Positions 29,486-37,451 of a stretch of 64,000 nt of DNA are shown in pieces (position 1 is the first letter of the stretch; each line of letters begins with the position of its first letter). The stretch covers positions 1 through 64,000 of the forward strand of contig NZ_RCMB01000018.1 of the NCBI RefSeq assembly GCF_011319465.1. The letters are read 5' to 3'. The notes below the pieces were generated by a model. That model had not been told where the DNA came from. It saw only the letters and a program-made list of their open reading frames with translations, and ran no database searches. A program made the translations under genes and the position numbers. This DNA comes from Candidatus Nitrosotalea sp. TS. GTDB taxonomy: Archaea; Thermoproteota; Nitrososphaeria; Nitrososphaerales; Nitrosopumilaceae.

Positions 29486-30602
29486 TTAAGAATTAGGACT
29501 CATCTGTACTTGATTCTTAAATTCATCCCATGCCGGCTTTGTGTTGTTGGTATCGTCAATCAGTCCAGAACTGCAAAGATATGCCGCAGTATTATTCAAG
29601 AGAATGTTGTTGTTAAATGAAGTTTGTACGTTTGTATTCAGGCCTCTATAACAAGTATCAAGCGGTCTGTCATATTGCCTGTACCATGTCATAAACTCAA
29701 ATTGAGATTCATTTTTCCTGTAAAAGTCAAATGCAGTCTTTACAAATTGTGCCTGGTCAGCCTCGGTTCCGTTAATTGTTTTATCTGTGCCCCAACCAAT
29801 CTCCATTAATGCAATGTTCTTTCCGCCTGCAAAATCTATCATCTTCTGAAGATTTTGTCCCGCTTCATCAGGACTCTTGGTTTGATAGAATTCCAGATCA
29901 ACTGGAGCGTAAGAATACGCTACAAAATCACCTTGGATTGAGTTTTTTTACCATGTCAGAATCAGAGTGGTTTATCAGGTCATTTAGTGAAAACCAGTTT
30001 CCAAACTTGACATTGGGGTGTTTTGTCTTAAGATCCGCATAAACTGGAATTGAAAAAGTCCACATATTTTGGAATGTCATTTGGGTGATCTCTAAAGTAG
30101 ACATTCAGATCCCCTCCTATGATTACATAGTCCACGTATGTAGTATCTTGACAGAATTGTGTCAAGCGCACTTGCTGTCTGGTTTGCCAGATTTGCATCA
30201 AGGCTTGGTTGTTGTCCCAACCAATTTGGAAATGGTCCAAGCTGTTCGTTATTTATTATAGAAAAGTAGAGTGTGACGTTGAGATGTTGCTCCCTGTTCA
30301 GACCCATGAGAATATCATATGTTTGCCAATTGAAAGTTCCTTGTTGCGGTTCTATAATTGGCCATAGCATGTAGACGTTGCTTCGGCCTATGCCAGTTGA
30401 TGCGGCTTGGATGTAGGCATTGTGCACTTCATTAAATGTAGGCCTCTCAGTTGGCGGCATGATAACTAGACCAAGTTTTGGATTTGGCGTTACTTGAGTT
30501 ACTGGTTGTGGTTGTGACGGTTGTAAAACAAGAAAGAGCACTGCAACAGCGAACCGCAGCTACTACTGCACCTATAGCAATACCAATAGTTTTTCTCTGC
30601 AA
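29486..30602 (-). pseudogene. Secreted glycoside-hydrolase-like TIM-barrel protein, about four frameshifts
   Basis: Fragments in all three frames assemble into one protein. A membrane anchor (MQRKTIGIAIGAVVAAV then AVAVLFLVL) starts at a TTG at 30602. A catalytic-barrel-like region follows with ASTGIGRSNVYMLWPIIEP, TYVDYVIIGGDLNVYF, GDFVAYSYAPVDLEFYQ and KNIALMEIGWGTDK, then MTWYRQYDRPLDTC. The ordered W, D and E residues resemble clan-A glycoside hydrolases. Breaks lie near 30555, 30135, 30040 and at a T7 run near 29944-29950. More breaks than in any other gene here; genuine decay is possible, although error is equally plausible. Confidence 0.6.
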
Positions 30603-30657
30603 CGCTATTTTCAGTAAGTAATGATACTAAAAGAGTTTTGATTTGAGAACGGCAGAT

Positions 30658-33316
30658 CTATCCAGATGTGCATCCGCTATATCCACATTCAATGCAGATG
30701 TTGCAGCCTTCTGCGAAGACAAGTGTATTTTTACATGTTGGACACAACGTCTCTTCAATTTGTTCAGCCGTAAGTTTTGGCGGTGATTGAATTACCCCAC
30801 TTTCTGGAATCTTTATCTGAAGTGCTCGTTCCACTTGGACTCTCAAGTAAGCATTTGTGATATTCTTTGAGATGTAGTCAGTTACAAATGTGCTTGGAGT
30901 AACTTGGAATGTCTTTTGTACATCATCACCTGTCATGTGAAGTACTTGTTCATGTCTTGAGCCGTCTCGGTATACAGTGATTCCCTTTAGTCCGAGTTCA
31001 TGTGCTAACAAATATGCTGCCTTTACATCGTCAGATGATACATCGTTTGGCATGTTGATGGTCTTTGCAATGGCATTTCCGATCCATCTTTGCCATACAC
31101 CCTGTGCCATTAGGTGATCTGCCCAGTGAATGTCCATTGCTGTAACAAAGATTTTCTGCATCCATTCTGGAATCTCTGCAATTCCTTTTACTGAACCATA
31201 GTTATTTGCAATTTTTTCCAGTAACTGATCACTGTATAGACCGTGTTCCTTGAGAACTGCTTCAAATATCTTGTTTGTGTAGAAGAATCTTCCTACGGTT
31301 ACTCGTTTTTCAAATACAAGTGCAAACATTGGTTCCATTCCATTGGAGCAATCGGCAATCATGGACAAGGTTCCAGTAGGTGCTACTGTAGTAGTGAGAA
31401 CATTTCTGATTCCGTTCTTTTGGATCTTTGCTATCAAGGCATCCCAGTCATAGGTTCGAGTATTCTTTGGCTTTTCATAATAACCTGCCACTGGAATCTT
31501 TCCTTCGGGATATTCTGTTTTTGAACACAATGGAAACGGTCCTCGTGTTTTTGCAAGTGCAATGCTTTCTTCGGTGGAATAGTAGGTCAGTGCCTCGGCT
31601 AATTTTTCTTGGAATTCATATCCTTCTTGTGAGTTGTATGGAATTCGTAGTTTGAATAACAGGTCTGCAACTCCCATTACTCCAAGACCTATTCTTCTAG
31701 AGTCCTTAGATGCCTGATCTATCTCTGGAATTGGATAGTTGTTGACATCAATTATGTTGTCTAGGAATCTGGTTGTTTTTCTAATTGCTTCTTCATATCT
31801 TTGCCAGTCAAATTCGTATTGTCCATCTGCCTTTCTCTTTACATAGTTAGCCAGATTAATTGATCCAAGGTTGCATGATTCGTATGGATACAGGCTTTGT
31901 TCCCCGCAAGGATTTGTTGCACGAAGTGGTGCACCGCGAGCCTTTGCAAATACATTGTACTTGTTAATTATATCAAAGAAGATCAGTCCAGGTTCTGCAC
32001 TCTTCCATGCAGATAGTGCTATCAAATCAATAATGTGATGAGCATTCACTTCTCTTACTGGTGACTTGTCCAGAGGACTTCGTAGGGTGTATTTGCCATC
32101 TTGTGAATTTACTAATGCTTCCCAAAAGTCTTCCCAGATTCCTACACTTACATTAAAGTTCTCTAGTATACCTGGCTTTGTTTTAGCAGTAACGAATTTC
32201 TCAATATCTGGATGCCATGATTCTATGATTCCCATGTTTGCACCCCTTCGTTTTCCTCCCTGCTTGACCACTTCTGTTACAGTGTTAATTATATTCATGA
32301 AAGAGACTGGACCTGATGCAACTCCTGATGTTGATGCAACCATGTCTCCTTCTGGCCTCAAGTCAGAATAATTGATACCAACACCACCGCCTGATTTGAA
32401 TATCAAAGCAGCATCAGAAGATGATTTCATTATCTTTTCCATGTCATCAGGCATTCCAAGCACAAAACAGGCAGAAAGTTGTCCTAGTCGTGCTCCTGCA
32501 TTCATCATGGTAGGGGAATTTGGTAGAAAGTCTTGGGAAGCCATCATTTCATAGTATTCGTCAATTCTCTCAGCATGCTGTTCAAACTTGTTTGCTGCAA
32601 GCATCGTAAGAAATTCTTTGATGCCAACCTTCATCTGGCCACGTTTGGCCAAGTCAATGTAATGCTGTATGAGTGACCTAAAGTGATATTTGCTGAGGTA
32701 ATACTTTCCTATTTTGAATTTGCAGTTAAAGTCATCCAGCTTGTCTAGATATTTTGCTGCCTCCTTCGGTATTCTGGATATCACCCCTCTCCACACTGAA
32801 GATAGATGGATCTTTTAGAACATCAGAGATTCCAACAAGCGTTGCAACTCTTTCAAACATCTCACCTGGGCTTTCAGTTATCTGGCCCTTGTTGTTTCTG
32901 AGTAGATATCTAGAGGCAAGAACTCTAAGACAATTAAGATCAAATTTCTTGGCAACAGAGTCAAGAGTCTGGGATTCGAGCACCTTTGACTTTTCCTCTC
33001 GTACCCTTCTGCGTTCATGTCTATACAGTATGTATGCTTTAGCGATCTCCCCCAATCCTTCATCAATCAGGGTTGATTCTACCATATCTTGTACATCTTC
33101 AACGCTTGGTAATGCTGAGGATGAATAGCCATGAGTTACAAGTTTTTCAATAACACGATTTGCTAGTTTATCGGCGGATCCATGATCGGGTCTGCCGCAA
33201 GCTACTAGTGCCTTGTAGATCGCATTTGAAATTTTATCCTTCTGGAACGAAGATACGCGGCCGTCACGCTTCTTTACATCGATGATCGAATTCTCTATTT
33301 GTGAAAAATCTGTCAT
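30658..33316 (-). CDS. nrdJ: Adenosylcobalamin-dependent (class II) ribonucleotide reductase (one frameshift)
   Basis: About 885 residues. An N-terminal ATP-cone (VKKRDGRVSSFQKDKISNAIY) is followed by the ten-stranded barrel with LGQLSACFVLGMPDD, KSGGGVGINYSDLRPEG, the radical-cysteine motif NPCGEQSLYPYESCNLGS and a TTTVAPTGTLSMIADCSNG motif. The C-terminal CPTCKNTLVFAEGC and CIECGYSGCTSG form a zinc-ribbon or thiol-exchange tail. The frame breaks near 32752-32755 at a T4 run; removing one base joins EGGSKYLDKLDDF. It makes dNDPs using coenzyme B12, and cobalamin genes occur 20 kb away. The mRNA leader is short, with GGGGAG nine bases before the ATG. Confidence 0.94.
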
Positions 33317-33348
33317 TTTACACTCCCCGCAACAGTATCAAATGAGAG

Positions 33349-33356
33349 TTAAATAA
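33349..33356 (-). promoter_or_regulatory. TATA box of nrdJ
   Basis: On the minus strand this reads TTATTTAA, about 36 nt before the ATG at 33316. It predicts a leader of roughly 10 nt that would contain a GGGGAG Shine-Dalgarno-like element. Confidence 0.45.
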
Positions 33357-33476
33357 AGTCTGCGGCAAAATTTTTTTTCGTATTGCTGAGCTTTGGATCA
33401 ATTTTGTTGACACCATTATGATTTTCATAGTAATAGATCGTCATGCGTCAATATAATCGTAAAAGAATTCTGTGAA

Positions 33477-33492
33477 AATTTGTGAACAAATT
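33477..33492. repeat. Inverted repeat between the NrdD-like gene and nrdJ
   Basis: Arms AATTTGT (33477-33483) and ACAAATT (33486-33492) form a perfect 7-bp inverted repeat around GA. It lies in the 216-bp gap, about 120 bp upstream of the nrdJ TATA box and 40 bp after the stop of the upstream gene. Regulatory function is only a possibility. The rest of the gap is AT-rich and has no gene I can see. Confidence 0.3.
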
Positions 33493-33532
33493 CAATAATA
33501 TTTTCTAATTTTTAATTCTAGGAATTTGTTGG

Positions 33533-35628
33533 CTATGCTAGTATGTAGGGTGACTTGCAGACCGGACATTTTTCTGCAATCTTTTCTTCTTTGAGTCCGC
33601 AATTGCTACAAATAGGCACCTTCTTGATTGGCCTAAACGAACCTAATAGATCTCCGGCTTTTTCTATTGCCTTTTTAATTCCTGAGGAATCCATTGCGTC
33701 TGGGATCTTTAGTTGGACCAGTAATCCGCCGTTAAGCATCTTTGAAAGATGGTTAGATTCTGCTACCTTTTCGCTCTTAGGCGTCATTCCATCAATTTCT
33801 GAGGCGTCGATTGTGACTCCTTCCGAGTAAGATTCGCCTTCTACGTGTGGGTGAATTGACATTTTGCCATACTTTTCACCATCTAATGAGGAGAAGCGAG
33901 CAGATGCGTCACTTTCAGTTATGGAAATGGTAACATTGTCACCCATCTCTTTTCCTTTCTTGGCTGCCACCTCAGTAGCAGTAGTTACAACTTTTGCCAA
34001 GATTTCCTGTCCAGCCTTGTTATTCTCATAACCTAGGATTCCATAAACTGCTTCCTTGAGTCCTAGCAAATTAACAACTAGTGTAACTGAACCCTTTTGC
34101 ATATACTGCGTATTATTTGCAAGGATTGGGTTAAGTCCCCTACGAGTAAGATCTGATATCTCCTTCTTTCGTATTGACATTGCTGCCAGAGCAGGTTTCA
34201 TTAACAATGCCAATCTTGCTCTAAAGTAGGTTTCATCTTTGTTTGATTCAAACGCAAGTCGTGGCATATTGATCGATAAAGATTGCAAGTTAATTGAGGT
34301 GACCGAAGTGCTCTTTGCATCTCCCTTAGAGAGGCCTTTGCTTGATGCCAGTCCTTTTGAGAACATTACACGTCCTCCTAACGCAATAATGTCAGACAAA
34401 ATATCTGAAAACTCGTTGATCTTTCCTTTTTCATAATCTATTATGACACCTATCGATGGTAAAGGTGTAGATTTTACATATTTTTTATACGCTGCAAGAA
34501 TAGCGCCGACAATTTTTGGCTCTGTACCTAGTGAAATTCTAAACGATGCAAGTGCCTCGTTCTTTCCATACTTGGGCGCAGTTGATATTTTGGCAAAAGA
34601 ATTTGTAAGTTTTTCTTCAATTTCCTGGATATTTTTTGAATATTTTTGTAATACTCCTACCAATCCATCAATAACAACCTCCTGAGAGGCCTCCTTGATA
34701 AGAAGCGATGTTATGATTGAAAGAGATGTGGCCAAGTCATCAAGAGAAGTTGGAGCCGTCTTTCTTGTTACTCCCAAGAATTTTCCTCTTAGGTCTATGC
34801 CATCTTCAATTAGCTCCTTGATGTTTACAAATATGGTATCAGGAAGAATTGACCACAGGCCAGCGTTTGTAATATGAATATCACCTGAAAGATGAGAATC
34901 GGCAACATCTTTGGCAATGTATTCAATACAAGATACTCCCCGAAAACAGTTTGACCTGTCTTAAACAGCATGCCTTCTACCCCGTTATGGATGCCATCCA
35001 CATTAGTCAGCATCTCATGTATATCGTATCCAGGAATGCCAAATCGTGCTAGTTTGTGCCTATAGTCCTCATGGCCCTGTTCCAAAAGGACAGAATTGAC
35101 CATTTCACGTATTAATGAAGAAGTAAGATATGATGTCTGGAATTTGTATATGCGGTTTTCTACCTCTTCTGTTATCTTCTGTGCAAGTTCTAAAGGCAGG
35201 CTTCCTTCCCGAACAAGGGACTGGATTATTTTATGAGAGTTGAATTCCTCTATAGATTCGTGCGATGTACGTACGTACATCTTGCCGCTCTCAATAATTG
35301 AGCGTTCCTCGATCTGCCTAGCAAGGCTTAGTACTAGTTTACCCAAATTTGTGATGGTATATCTTCTCTCAGACTTGTTTAAAGCCACAAGAGACTGGCG
35401 CAATAATTTTCGAAGATGATATGCAAACTTGCCGCTTTCTTTCTTTGATTTGAACCCAGCAAGCGACTTTAGCTCCGAATATGTAAGTGGACCTTTTGAA
35501 TTTAAGATTCTTAAAATATCTATTCTGTTAGGGCTTGCCATGACAGAGAAGATCATTCTTACTCGCTTTGATGCAGACTGTAAAATTCCTCCTCGCTTTT
35601 GATCACCAAAGTCTTCACTCAGTTCCAT
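33533..35628 (-). CDS. wHTH + ATP-cone + inactive NrdD-like protein with zinc ribbon (one frameshift)
   Basis: About 697 residues after repair of an A4 run at 34943-34946. Residues about 15-100 form an ArsR-like winged helix (SVMASPNRIDILRILNSKG). Residues about 105-195 form an ATP-cone (YVRTSHESIEEFNSHKIIQSL). The rest matches the anaerobic ribonucleotide reductase NrdD: DVADSHLSGDIHITNAGLW, and a C-terminal ribbon with CSNC and CPVC. The GDIHI block lacks the usual catalytic Cys/His surroundings. The protein ends at SPYILA right after the ribbon, with no glycyl-radical loop in any frame. It is therefore unlikely to be a working class III reductase. The domain set and the nrdJ neighbour suggest a nucleotide-sensing regulator. 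Confidence 0.85.
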
Positions 35629-35696
35629 GGAAAGGTCTACTTTACGTTGGTAAATAAGATTTGTGACGTAATCTGATCTTACGCAAACTTTTTAGA

Positions 35697-35858
35697 TCAG
35701 TTCTTTTGAACGTCTACGGTAAATTCCGATGATGACAGCGTTTGACCGCAGGACGGGCATTTACTGTTGTAGGGTCGCATTACATCCTTGATCGATTTTA
35801 GCATTCGCATGTTTGCTATCTTAGATCCACATTTGCTGCATACGACATCCACTGACAT
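35697..35858 (-). CDS. Small zinc-ribbon protein, 53 aa
   Basis: A 53-residue protein starting MSVDVVCSKCGSKIANMRML, with CSKC near the N-terminus and CPSC near residue 34, separated by a helix-like linker. This is a rubredoxin-like or zinc-ribbon knuckle pair. A TATA box lies about 25 nt upstream of the ATG, so the transcript is leaderless. It stands between the DUF35/thiolase pair and the NrdD-like gene, all on the same strand. No family name is certain. Confidence 0.7.
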   Translation of the reverse strand: MSVDVVCSKCGSKIANMRMLKSIKDVMRPYNSKCPSCGQTLSSSEFTVDVQKN

Positions 35859-35879
35859 AAGAATAGATCTTGCATAATA

Positions 35880-35887
35880 TTATAAAA
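35880..35887 (-). promoter_or_regulatory. TATA box of the 53-residue zinc-ribbon gene
   Basis: On the minus strand this reads TTTTATAA, centred about 25 nt before the ATG at 35858. Confidence 0.5.
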
Positions 35888-35928
35888 GAAATTATCTAGT
35901 TTTTTTTAATTAACTCGATAAAATTGAT

Positions 35929-36294
35929 TTACTGTTTTTGTATTATCATTCCGTGTTCGTCATATCCAGTTATCTTTACTTTTGTACCCAAGGGCAGATC
36001 TGCTGGCGACTTGATGTTTGCCATGAAACCTGAAATTCGTAATTCGAAATTGTCTACATTCATGACAACCCAGGCGTATGGAACCGCCTTCTCAAAACCC
36101 TCTGGCGGGACAGTTATTATGGTATAGGTAGCTACTGTGCCCTTGCCATCAATTATTATATTCTCAAATCCCTTGTTTCCGCAACTTTGGCAAAAGTATG
36201 TAGTAACCAGATGAGGGTGTCCGCACTTGGTACATTTTCTTGCTAGTATCTTTCCTACCTTTGCATTAGTGATAAATTCCTCTTTAGATAGCAA
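35929..36294 (-). CDS. DUF35 zinc-ribbon/OB-fold protein, thiolase partner
   Basis: 121 residues with an N-terminal rubredoxin-like zinc ribbon (CTKCGHPHLVTTYFCQSCG) and a C-terminal OB fold (GKGTVATYTIITVPPEGF, LPLGTKVKITGYDE). DUF35 proteins form complexes with archaeal thiolase and, in some archaea, HMG-CoA synthase, and channel the acyl-CoA intermediate. The thiolase gene lies 2 nt upstream, which supports that role. Confidence 0.92.
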   Translation of the reverse strand: MLSKEEFITNAKVGKILARKCTKCGHPHLVTTYFCQSCGNKGFENIIIDGKGTVATYTIITVPPEGFEKAVPYAWVVMNVDNFELRISGFMANIKSPADLPLGTKVKITGYDEHGMIIQKQ

Positions 36295-36296
36295 AA

Positions 36297-37451
36297 TTAT
36301 ACACTTTTGAAAATATGAACTGCGCAGCTTGCGCCAGTTGCACCAAAGTTGTGTGTTAGCCCGATTTTTGCATCTTTGACAGTTCGTTCTCCTGCCTTTC
36401 CTGTCAATTGATCAAAGACCTCAGCTACCTGTCCTATTCCGGTTGCCCCTATTGGATGTCCCTTTGACTTGAGGCCTCCTGACGGGTTTATGGAAATATC
36501 AGCATTGAGTTTTGTTCTTCCTTCTCGTACTGCTTGTACAGCTTGTCCCTTTTCGAAGAATCCAAGATCTTCAGTGTCAACCAGCTCTGCAATTGTGAAA
36601 CAATCGTGGACTTCGGCAAAGTCTACATCCTTTGGAGTAATTCCTGCCATCTTGTATGCTGCCTGAGCTGCAATCTTGGTACTTGGAATTGTAGTGATGT
36701 GATCCCTTCCTTGCAATGCAGCAGGTGATCCACCCCTTCCTGATCCAATTACTTCAATGTAATTTTTTGAATGAGCCTTTGCAAATTTTTCACTACACAA
36801 AATTACAGCACTTGCTCCATCTGAAAATGGACAGCAGTCATATAGCTTCAGTGGGCTTGCAACTACTGCTGAGTTTAGGACATCGTCGATGGTAATTTTT
36901 TTGCGAAGATGAGCTTTTGGATTAAGTAAACCATTATCGTGATTTTTTACTGCAACCATTGCAAGATCTTCTTCGGTTGCCTTAAACTCTGCAAGATATG
37001 CTCTTGCCATAGATGCAAACAATCCTGGAAATGATGCACCATCACCACCCTCATAAAAGAAATCAGAGCAATAAGAAAAGTAGGTTGTAGTCCATTCAGT
37101 ACCAGTGTGGGTTACTTTTTCAACACCGGTTGCTAAAACTACATCATAAAATCCTGCAGCTACATTTGCATATGCTTCTCTAAATGATACAGAACCGCTT
37201 CCACATGCAGATTCTATTGACAAAGATGGAACTTCTGGGATTCCAAGGTTACTCATTATTACTGGACCCAAGTGAACTTGCTTGTCTGCAATACCAAATA
37301 CATTTGATATGTATCCAGCTTGGATTTGCTTTGGGCCTATTCCTGCACTTTCTATTGCTTCTACGGATGCTTGAAGTGCAACGTCGGTAATACTGTCTTG
37401 CAGCTTGCCATATTTTGTGCTGCCGGCACCAATAACACAGACTTTTTCCAC
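36297..37451 (-). CDS. Acetyl-CoA acetyltransferase (thiolase, SCP2 type)
   Basis: A 384-residue archaeal thiolase. The nucleophilic cysteine is in SIESACGSGSVSFREA near residue 86, HDCFTIAEL is in the middle, and GLKSKGHPIGATGIGQ carries the catalytic His. It starts at a GTG behind a TATA box. In ammonia-oxidising archaea, acetoacetyl-CoA thiolase closes the 3-hydroxypropionate/4-hydroxybutyrate cycle. Paired with DUF35, it could instead feed the mevalonate pathway for lipids; both uses are compatible. Confidence 0.92.
   Translation of the reverse strand: MEKVCVIGAGSTKYGKLQDSITDVALQASVEAIESAGIGPKQIQAGYISNVFGIADKQVHLGPVIMSNLGIPEVPSLSIESACGSGSVSFREAYANVAAGFYDVVLATGVEKVTHTGTEWTTTYFSYCSDFFYEGGDGASFPGLFASMARAYLAEFKATEEDLAMVAVKNHDNGLLNPKAHLRKKITIDDVLNSAVVASPLKLYDCCPFSDGASAVILCSEKFAKAHSKNYIEVIGSGRGGSPAALQGRDHITTIPSTKIAAQAAYKMAGITPKDVDFAEVHDCFTIAELVDTEDLGFFEKGQAVQAVREGRTKLNADISINPSGGLKSKGHPIGATGIGQVAEVFDQLTGKAGERTVKDAKIGLTHNFGATGASCAVHIFKSV

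Follow-up and report, generated by a model that had tools for sequence, protein, structure and literature searches.

A retired class III ribonucleotide reductase fused to a winged helix as a candidate regulator of nrdJ in ammonia-oxidizing archaea

The window analysed here, a stretch of 64,000 nucleotides from Candidatus Nitrosotalea sp. TS, encodes next to nrdJ a protein that, judged by the residues it has kept and lost, is a retired class III ribonucleotide reductase (RNR). It consists of a winged helix, an ATP-cone, an NrdD-like barrel and a zinc ribbon, in that order and followed by a stop, and is about 700 residues long in relatives. We consider it probable, from gene context, that this protein is a transcription factor controlling the synthesis of ribonucleotide reductase; in the best reading, it works like NrdR yet stands outside the NrdR family. 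The protein is widespread in Thermoproteota and present in most of the sampled genomes of the ammonia-oxidizer order (Nitrososphaerales). The features of the window are as follows.

33533 to 35628, minus strand: gene for the winged-helix/ATP-cone/dead-NrdD protein, taken as a single gene that a one-base break interrupts near 34915
35281 to 35586, minus strand: winged helix and linker helix, residues 15-116 (Pfam DUF7347/HTH_20; invariance in 43 loci)
35062 to 35280, minus strand: ATP-cone (Pfam); one further cone was found in the genome, which is 71% complete
33611 to 35061, minus strand: NrdD-like barrel without the active-site Cys, containing the frame break (Pfam and alignment with relatives)
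33557 to 33610, minus strand: CxxC/CxxC zinc ribbon, with a stop seven residues later and no glycyl-radical loop
30658 to 33316, minus strand: nrdJ, with a frame break near 32766, for a class II reductase that carries an ATP-cone of its own; the sole RNR barrel found in the genome
33395 to 33429, minus strand: conserved composite element 5′ of nrdJ, with core GGTGTCAACAAAATTGATCC at 33395-33414, plus TATGAAAATCATAAT
33350 to 33357, minus strand: putative TATA-like box of nrdJ, assigned by eye
35651 to 35667, minus strand: GTCANAARTCTTAWTTA, a promoter element before the regulator gene that spans a TATA-like box and is conserved in family f1

In the window the regulator gene is divided between two open reading frames (34825-35628 and 33533-34777), and one base is missing near 34915 relative to L064, a 90% identical locus from a Nitrosopumilaceae MAG that served as the reference for frame comparison. 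Likewise, nrdJ is present as two overlapping frames with one extra base near 32766 relative to L064, where it is whole. The regulator frame is uninterrupted in nearly all relatives read; it is also in pieces in G299, G311 and, at a contig end, G330. Given that the relatives are whole, that the genome of the window is 71% complete and that nrdJ is broken in the same manner, both breaks are probably assembly errors, and by comparison with these relatives the reading of the two frames as one protein is right. Start codons were set by rule or by eye. With the two protein pieces as queries, Pfam models exceeded their cut-offs for DUF7347 (42.8 bits, cut-off 27.6), HTH_20 (34.6 bits, cut-off 27), the ATP-cone PF03477 (40.3 bits, cut-off 25.8) and NRDD PF13597 (85.9 bits, cut-off 26.2). 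The original prediction had placed all four parts in a single protein, and all are present, in a gene split by a one-base break that it did not mention. On the 5′ side of the regulator gene, at 35929-37451 (minus strand), lie two genes of 121 and 384 residues that each recur in 41 of 43 loci and that, by look only, resemble an OB-fold protein and a thiolase.

The loss of reductase chemistry was assessed in an alignment of 159 full-length relatives, of which 99 come from the order and 60 from other parts of the phylum. The alignment also included 11 real NrdDs, which are neighbours of some of these relatives. The aligned loci start at L032; L003-L031 and L052-L061 (same genomes or overlapping stretches) and pieces shorter than 600 residues (L046) were left out. 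The first active-site Cys is found in none of the 159 relatives versus all 11 real NrdDs, most of which have it as RPFC, and its column holds Thr in 97 of the 99 proteins from the order. The two columns of the CC pair contain Cys in 0 and 2 of the 159 relatives, respectively. The radical Gly is likewise absent from all 159, versus its presence in 10 of the 11 neighbouring real enzymes, the one without an aligned Gly being the divergent L149D; this column is a gap in all 99 rows from the order and in 31 of the 60 others, the remaining 29 having another residue. These counts uphold the earlier statements that the protein lacks the catalytic Cys and ends after the ribbon without a glycyl-radical loop, and in the regulator frame of the window a stop codon directly follows CSNCGLKEEKIAEKCPVCKSPYILA. 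Some relatives outside the order, L146 (...TENIFAPLNLWPEAKKKDL) among them, retain a stretch that resembles a decayed glycyl-radical loop.

Other parts of the protein have been kept. All four ribbon Cys are present in 157 of the 159 relatives, the Asn of the NLPR motif in all 159, and the winged-helix columns are filled in all 159, with a GKFxYHL motif in 155 that occurs in none of the 11 real NrdDs. The C-terminal ribbon was also found in each of 40 further genomes of the order, a non-random set picked from genomes with an NrdD-family match, none of them in family f1; no GWN or RxTGYY-type motif was found in these 40. Against the NrdD model TIGR02487 the protein scores 74 bits, far below the cut-off of 326. 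In a quick-method tree of 90 rows, unrooted and with flagged long branches, a branch with support 99 separates the real NrdDs from the other rows, a topology compatible with a single origin of the dead form. An AlphaFold model of the protein is poor, with a mean pLDDT of 54 that probably stems from too little variation among the aligned sequences in the N-terminal part, and counts against the regulator reading; when this model was used in Foldseek, all 32 matches at E up to 0.001 were class III RNRs. At L149 (4951-7062, minus strand) the NrdD that follows the regulator is divergent and long-branched, and the close relative L150 has the usual type at this position.

The enzymes that would accompany a functional class III reductase are scarce in the order. 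Among 131 genomes, the activase NrdG (TIGR02491) exceeded its cut-off in none and NrdG2 (TIGR02495) in one, G408, which is also the only genome with a real NrdD over cut-off; neither activase passed in the 71% complete genome of the window. Sub-threshold radical-SAM matches are common in these genomes and are not evidence of NrdG. In G408, a genome 82% complete in 150 contigs, the real NrdD and NrdG2 lie side by side on contig C30 (1-2030), possibly through transfer or contamination. The idea that the protein is a functional anaerobic reductase of unusual chemistry, or one whose active site is hidden by an assembly artefact, could appeal to the match to the NRDD model and to public records, which may name such proteins anaerobic reductases; we consider it highly improbable given the absence of the first Cys and the radical Gly from all 159 relatives, the near absence of activases over cut-off and the presence in these genomes of nrdJ, which is able to supply dNTPs. 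An active class III enzyme was rejected on the residue counts and the lack of any NrdG over cut-off. The original prediction has thus withstood a search of the relatives for a radical Gly or catalytic Cys in unbroken copies, or for an nrdG partner.

An NrdD-family match is present in 119 of the 131 genomes of the order, below cut-off except in G408, and absent from 12, including the 99%-complete G402, which counts against the regulator reading. On this survey the regulator is widespread in the order, and universality is not supported. NrdR exceeded its cut-off in a single genome of the 131 (G426). In the genome of the window an ATP-cone was found in the regulator and a second in nrdJ, which also provided the single RNR barrel found there.

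Gene context links the protein to ribonucleotide reductase. In 76 of 80 loci, the best 80 of 522 relatives, nrdJ is the next gene downstream on the same strand, 25-571 bases on, and the remaining four end at a contig border 0-666 bases downstream. In a second set from the order, with partly the same genomes, nrdJ lies downstream in 48 of 49 loci. The exception, L045 (4270 bases, from the same family as the window), has a winged helix 59% identical to that of L064 and no nrdJ detectable by tblastn in its 1985 bases downstream; it counts against the regulator reading and perhaps represents a paralogue or a lineage in which nrdJ has been relocated. The 40 further genomes have nrdJ downstream in 37 cases by open reading frame and in 38 when L213 is included by tblastn, the other two being cut; the length and N-terminus of nrdJ vary among them.

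The picture differs outside the order, where 60 loci were chosen, non-randomly, among the best-scoring matches. A real nrdD or nrdJ follows within 1000 bases on the same strand in 12 of these loci, so that the other 48 have no RNR gene directly downstream, which weighs against the regulator reading. In 34 loci (among L146-L199) the gene converges with pyrI or with a member of the aspartate/ornithine carbamoyltransferase family, probably pyrB; 10 loci are near neither an RNR gene nor a pyrB-like or pyrI gene, and four are cut. The convergent arrangement hints at control of pyrimidine supply or at overlapping transcripts. Since the same protein occurs before nrdD, or beside pyrB-like genes or pyrI, in other archaea of the phylum, its ancestral job would probably have been the control of nucleotide supply.

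The pairing with nrdJ could also reflect a partner that acts on the NrdJ protein itself, through allosteric or oligomer control, with the winged helix as a docking module. The pairing is very frequent in the order, the two proteins carry the two ATP-cones found in the genome of the window, and constraint on nearly every residue of the winged helix (see below) could mirror protein contacts. We nevertheless regard such a role as unlikely, as the family also occurs beside nrdD, pyrB-like genes or pyrI without an adjacent nrdJ, and the winged helix matches DNA-binding families, the nearest solved chains being regulators of the ArsR/HlyU type, with weak matches (E 0.003-0.03).

Our preferred reading, a transcription factor for RNR synthesis, draws attention to the winged helix, which is the most constrained part of the protein. 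Across 43 closely related loci, taken from the best 80 of 522 relatives (a forty-fourth, L134, was left out for ambiguous letters), 100 of the 102 residues of the winged helix and linker are invariant. The mean identity of this part is 99.5%, against 94% for the ATP-cone and 62-75% for the parts of the barrel in the same loci, and 81% for NrdJ (38 loci). The longest invariant run spans 103 residues, versus at most 18 among eleven other open reading frame families of the same loci, one of which is an antisense frame inside the regulator gene, and 24 in NrdJ. Fourfold sites differ by 51% in the winged helix and by 51-63% elsewhere in the regulator gene; the constraint therefore acts on the protein, and a cause at the level of DNA is unlikely. 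More widely, the winged helix is at least 93% identical to that of L064 in 92 of 99 proteins from the order; family f3 shows 92-99% identity to L064 and most of the other families sampled 67-80%, one of them (L235) reaching 98%.

A repressor with a single site could drift together with that site, so the rigidity may stem from a large number of sites or from contact with the basal machinery. A global replication or cell-cycle regulator that happens to include nrdJ among its targets would account for the near-constancy of the DNA-binding domain, with its invariant run of 103 residues in 43 loci, as a protein with many sites cannot drift with any one of them. To this possibility we assign a low probability: the core of the nrdJ element, GGTGTCAACAAAATTGATCC, occurs once in the genome of the window with up to three mismatches allowed, GTCANAARTCTTAWTTA has six matches elsewhere in 12 genomes compared with 14 for a reversed control, and the gene context is mostly one of nucleotide supply.

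Two conserved DNA elements accompany the gene pair in family f1, which comprises the Nitrosopumilaceae by organism names. The first, a composite element 5′ of nrdJ, lies mostly 85-101 bases before the start codon (range 67-126). Its consensus is about CTATGAAAATCRTAACGGTGTCAACAAAATTGAT in the Nitrosotalea-type group and about CCN2TATGAANTTCATAGTANCGGTGTNAA-N5-TTGA in the rest of f1, and putative imperfect dyads can be made out in it. The core GGTGTCAANAANNTTGA, which was derived from the scored sequences themselves, among which close relatives are not independent, is present within two mismatches in 66 of 94 loci versus 0.1% of resampled sequences; all 66 fall among the 85 f1 loci scored. The full 35-base composite with up to three mismatches was found in just four of 12 f1 genomes, each time once and directly after the regulator gene, which counts against the regulator reading. 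In L078 and L079, part of the block upstream of nrdJ looks duplicated, and the intergenic stretch is about 595 bases long. A search with Rfam (E up to 1) for an RNA element before nrdJ, such as a cobalamin riboswitch, gave nothing in 30000-37000.

The second element, GTCANAARTCTTAWTTA, is exact at the promoter of the regulator gene in 81 of 90 f1 loci and within two mismatches in 86, four loci in which no start was found having been left out; it never occurs within three mismatches in 47 other loci of the order. All of the 12 genomes have it at the regulator gene (10 exact and two with one mismatch). The element of nrdJ was not seen 5′ of the regulator gene in the alignments, where this different element is conserved; by eye, GTCA-type half-sites look alike in the two.

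Families f2 and f3 yielded neither element. An nrdJ element common to the whole order was rejected on this ground, as it is absent from the nine f2 and f3 loci scored for the core and none is visible in the f3 alignments; scoring covered families f1, f2 and f3. That f3 lacks both elements even though its winged helix is 92-99% identical to that of L064 counts against the regulator reading, and with both elements missing in f2 and f3, binding of either by the winged helix is a guess. Archaeal repressors often bind over the TATA-like box and activators often upstream of it. The position of the nrdJ element, upstream of the TATA-like box, is compatible with activation and repression alike, and the element at the regulator's own promoter covers the TATA-like box.

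These observations are consistent with a model in which an archaeal class III reductase was duplicated and acquired an N-terminal winged helix, in an order of events that we infer, while the duplicate lost the radical Gly and the catalytic Cys and kept the ATP-cone, the barrel fold and the zinc ribbon. The ATP-cone, and perhaps nucleotide sites of the barrel, would read the ATP/dATP or dNTP state. Nucleotide binding would change the oligomer and thereby the manner in which two or more winged helices meet the element before nrdJ, with the regulator's own promoter perhaps as a second target, and transcription of nrdJ would follow from this oligomer-set DNA binding. By analogy with NrdR, repression at high dATP would be the likeliest sign of control, with a modest preference over activation. 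As a tentative and rather doubtful extension, archaea may have built their own RNR regulator from a complete retired class III reductase whose old body still senses nucleotides at its allosteric and perhaps its substrate sites, so that the full dNTP balance and not ATP/dATP alone would set the promoter; the rigidity of the winged helix would then come from additional contact with the basal transcription machinery.

For the question of how archaea without NrdR set their supply of DNA precursors, the analysis provides a named and widespread candidate RNR regulator in very abundant microbes, together with two short DNA elements. If the reading is true, an ancient radical enzyme has clearly been converted here into a gene switch, of which forms that look half-way persist, with decayed glycyl-radical loops and the working enzyme next door. 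Mis-naming of such proteins as anaerobic reductases, if it occurs, would lead reconstructions of the metabolism of aerobic ammonia oxidizers astray. No description of a dead NrdD regulator in archaea was present among the matches listed in the full-text literature, a scope that mostly leaves aside subscription papers and preprints. The protein would add to two kinds already known, nucleotide-sensing RNR regulators and enzyme-derived transcription factors.

Among the latter are regulators of the MocR/PdxR type, in which a whole enzyme fold is joined to a winged helix and serves as the sensor. The protein described here resembles them in this design, although theirs is an aminotransferase fold, bacterial and unrelated. 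Its winged-helix fold is shared, at the level of the weak profile match (E 0.003-0.03), with ArsR/HlyU-type regulators, which differ in being single-domain proteins without nucleotide-binding parts. With NrdD (PF13597/TIGR02487; PDB 9d3x, 1h78, 4coi and 8p23) it has a homologous barrel, ATP-cone and C-terminal zinc ribbon; unlike NrdD, it lacks the active-site Cys and the glycyl-radical loop and carries the additional winged helix. The KRDG-type motif of most ATP-cones is replaced by VRTS, which counts against the regulator reading; the VRTS form is also found in two of three real archaeal NrdDs compared, and the third has VRRTDG. A phmmer search of the PDB with the ATP-cone alone gave no significant solved homologue.

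As in NrdR, an ATP-cone, a DNA-binding domain and a zinc ribbon are combined in a protein linked to RNR genes. In the published account of NrdR, the bacterial RNR repressor, nucleotide sensing by the ATP-cone works via dodecamer, octamer and tetramer forms, and NrdR has 140-220 residues, a DNA-binding N-terminal zinc ribbon and neither a barrel nor a winged helix (PMC9110341). The archaeal regulator, in contrast, has its winged helix first and its ribbon last, with a barrel of about 500 residues between them, and neither protein piece matched the NrdR model TIGR00244 at E up to 1. The ribbon is no evidence of NrdR-like DNA binding, since NrdD ordinarily carries the same ribbon at its C-terminus and the neighbouring real enzymes keep it too. 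An origin independent of NrdR, as proposed, follows from the architecture. The proposal of an archaeal counterpart of NrdR gains from the retired class III reductase body, the fused DNA-binding domain, the pairing with nrdJ (76/80) and the rarity of NrdR itself (1/131), and its regulatory core remains a reading of gene context. Sensing of ATP and dATP is a natural guess from NrdR, and the protein would then constitute a further kind of ATP-cone regulator.
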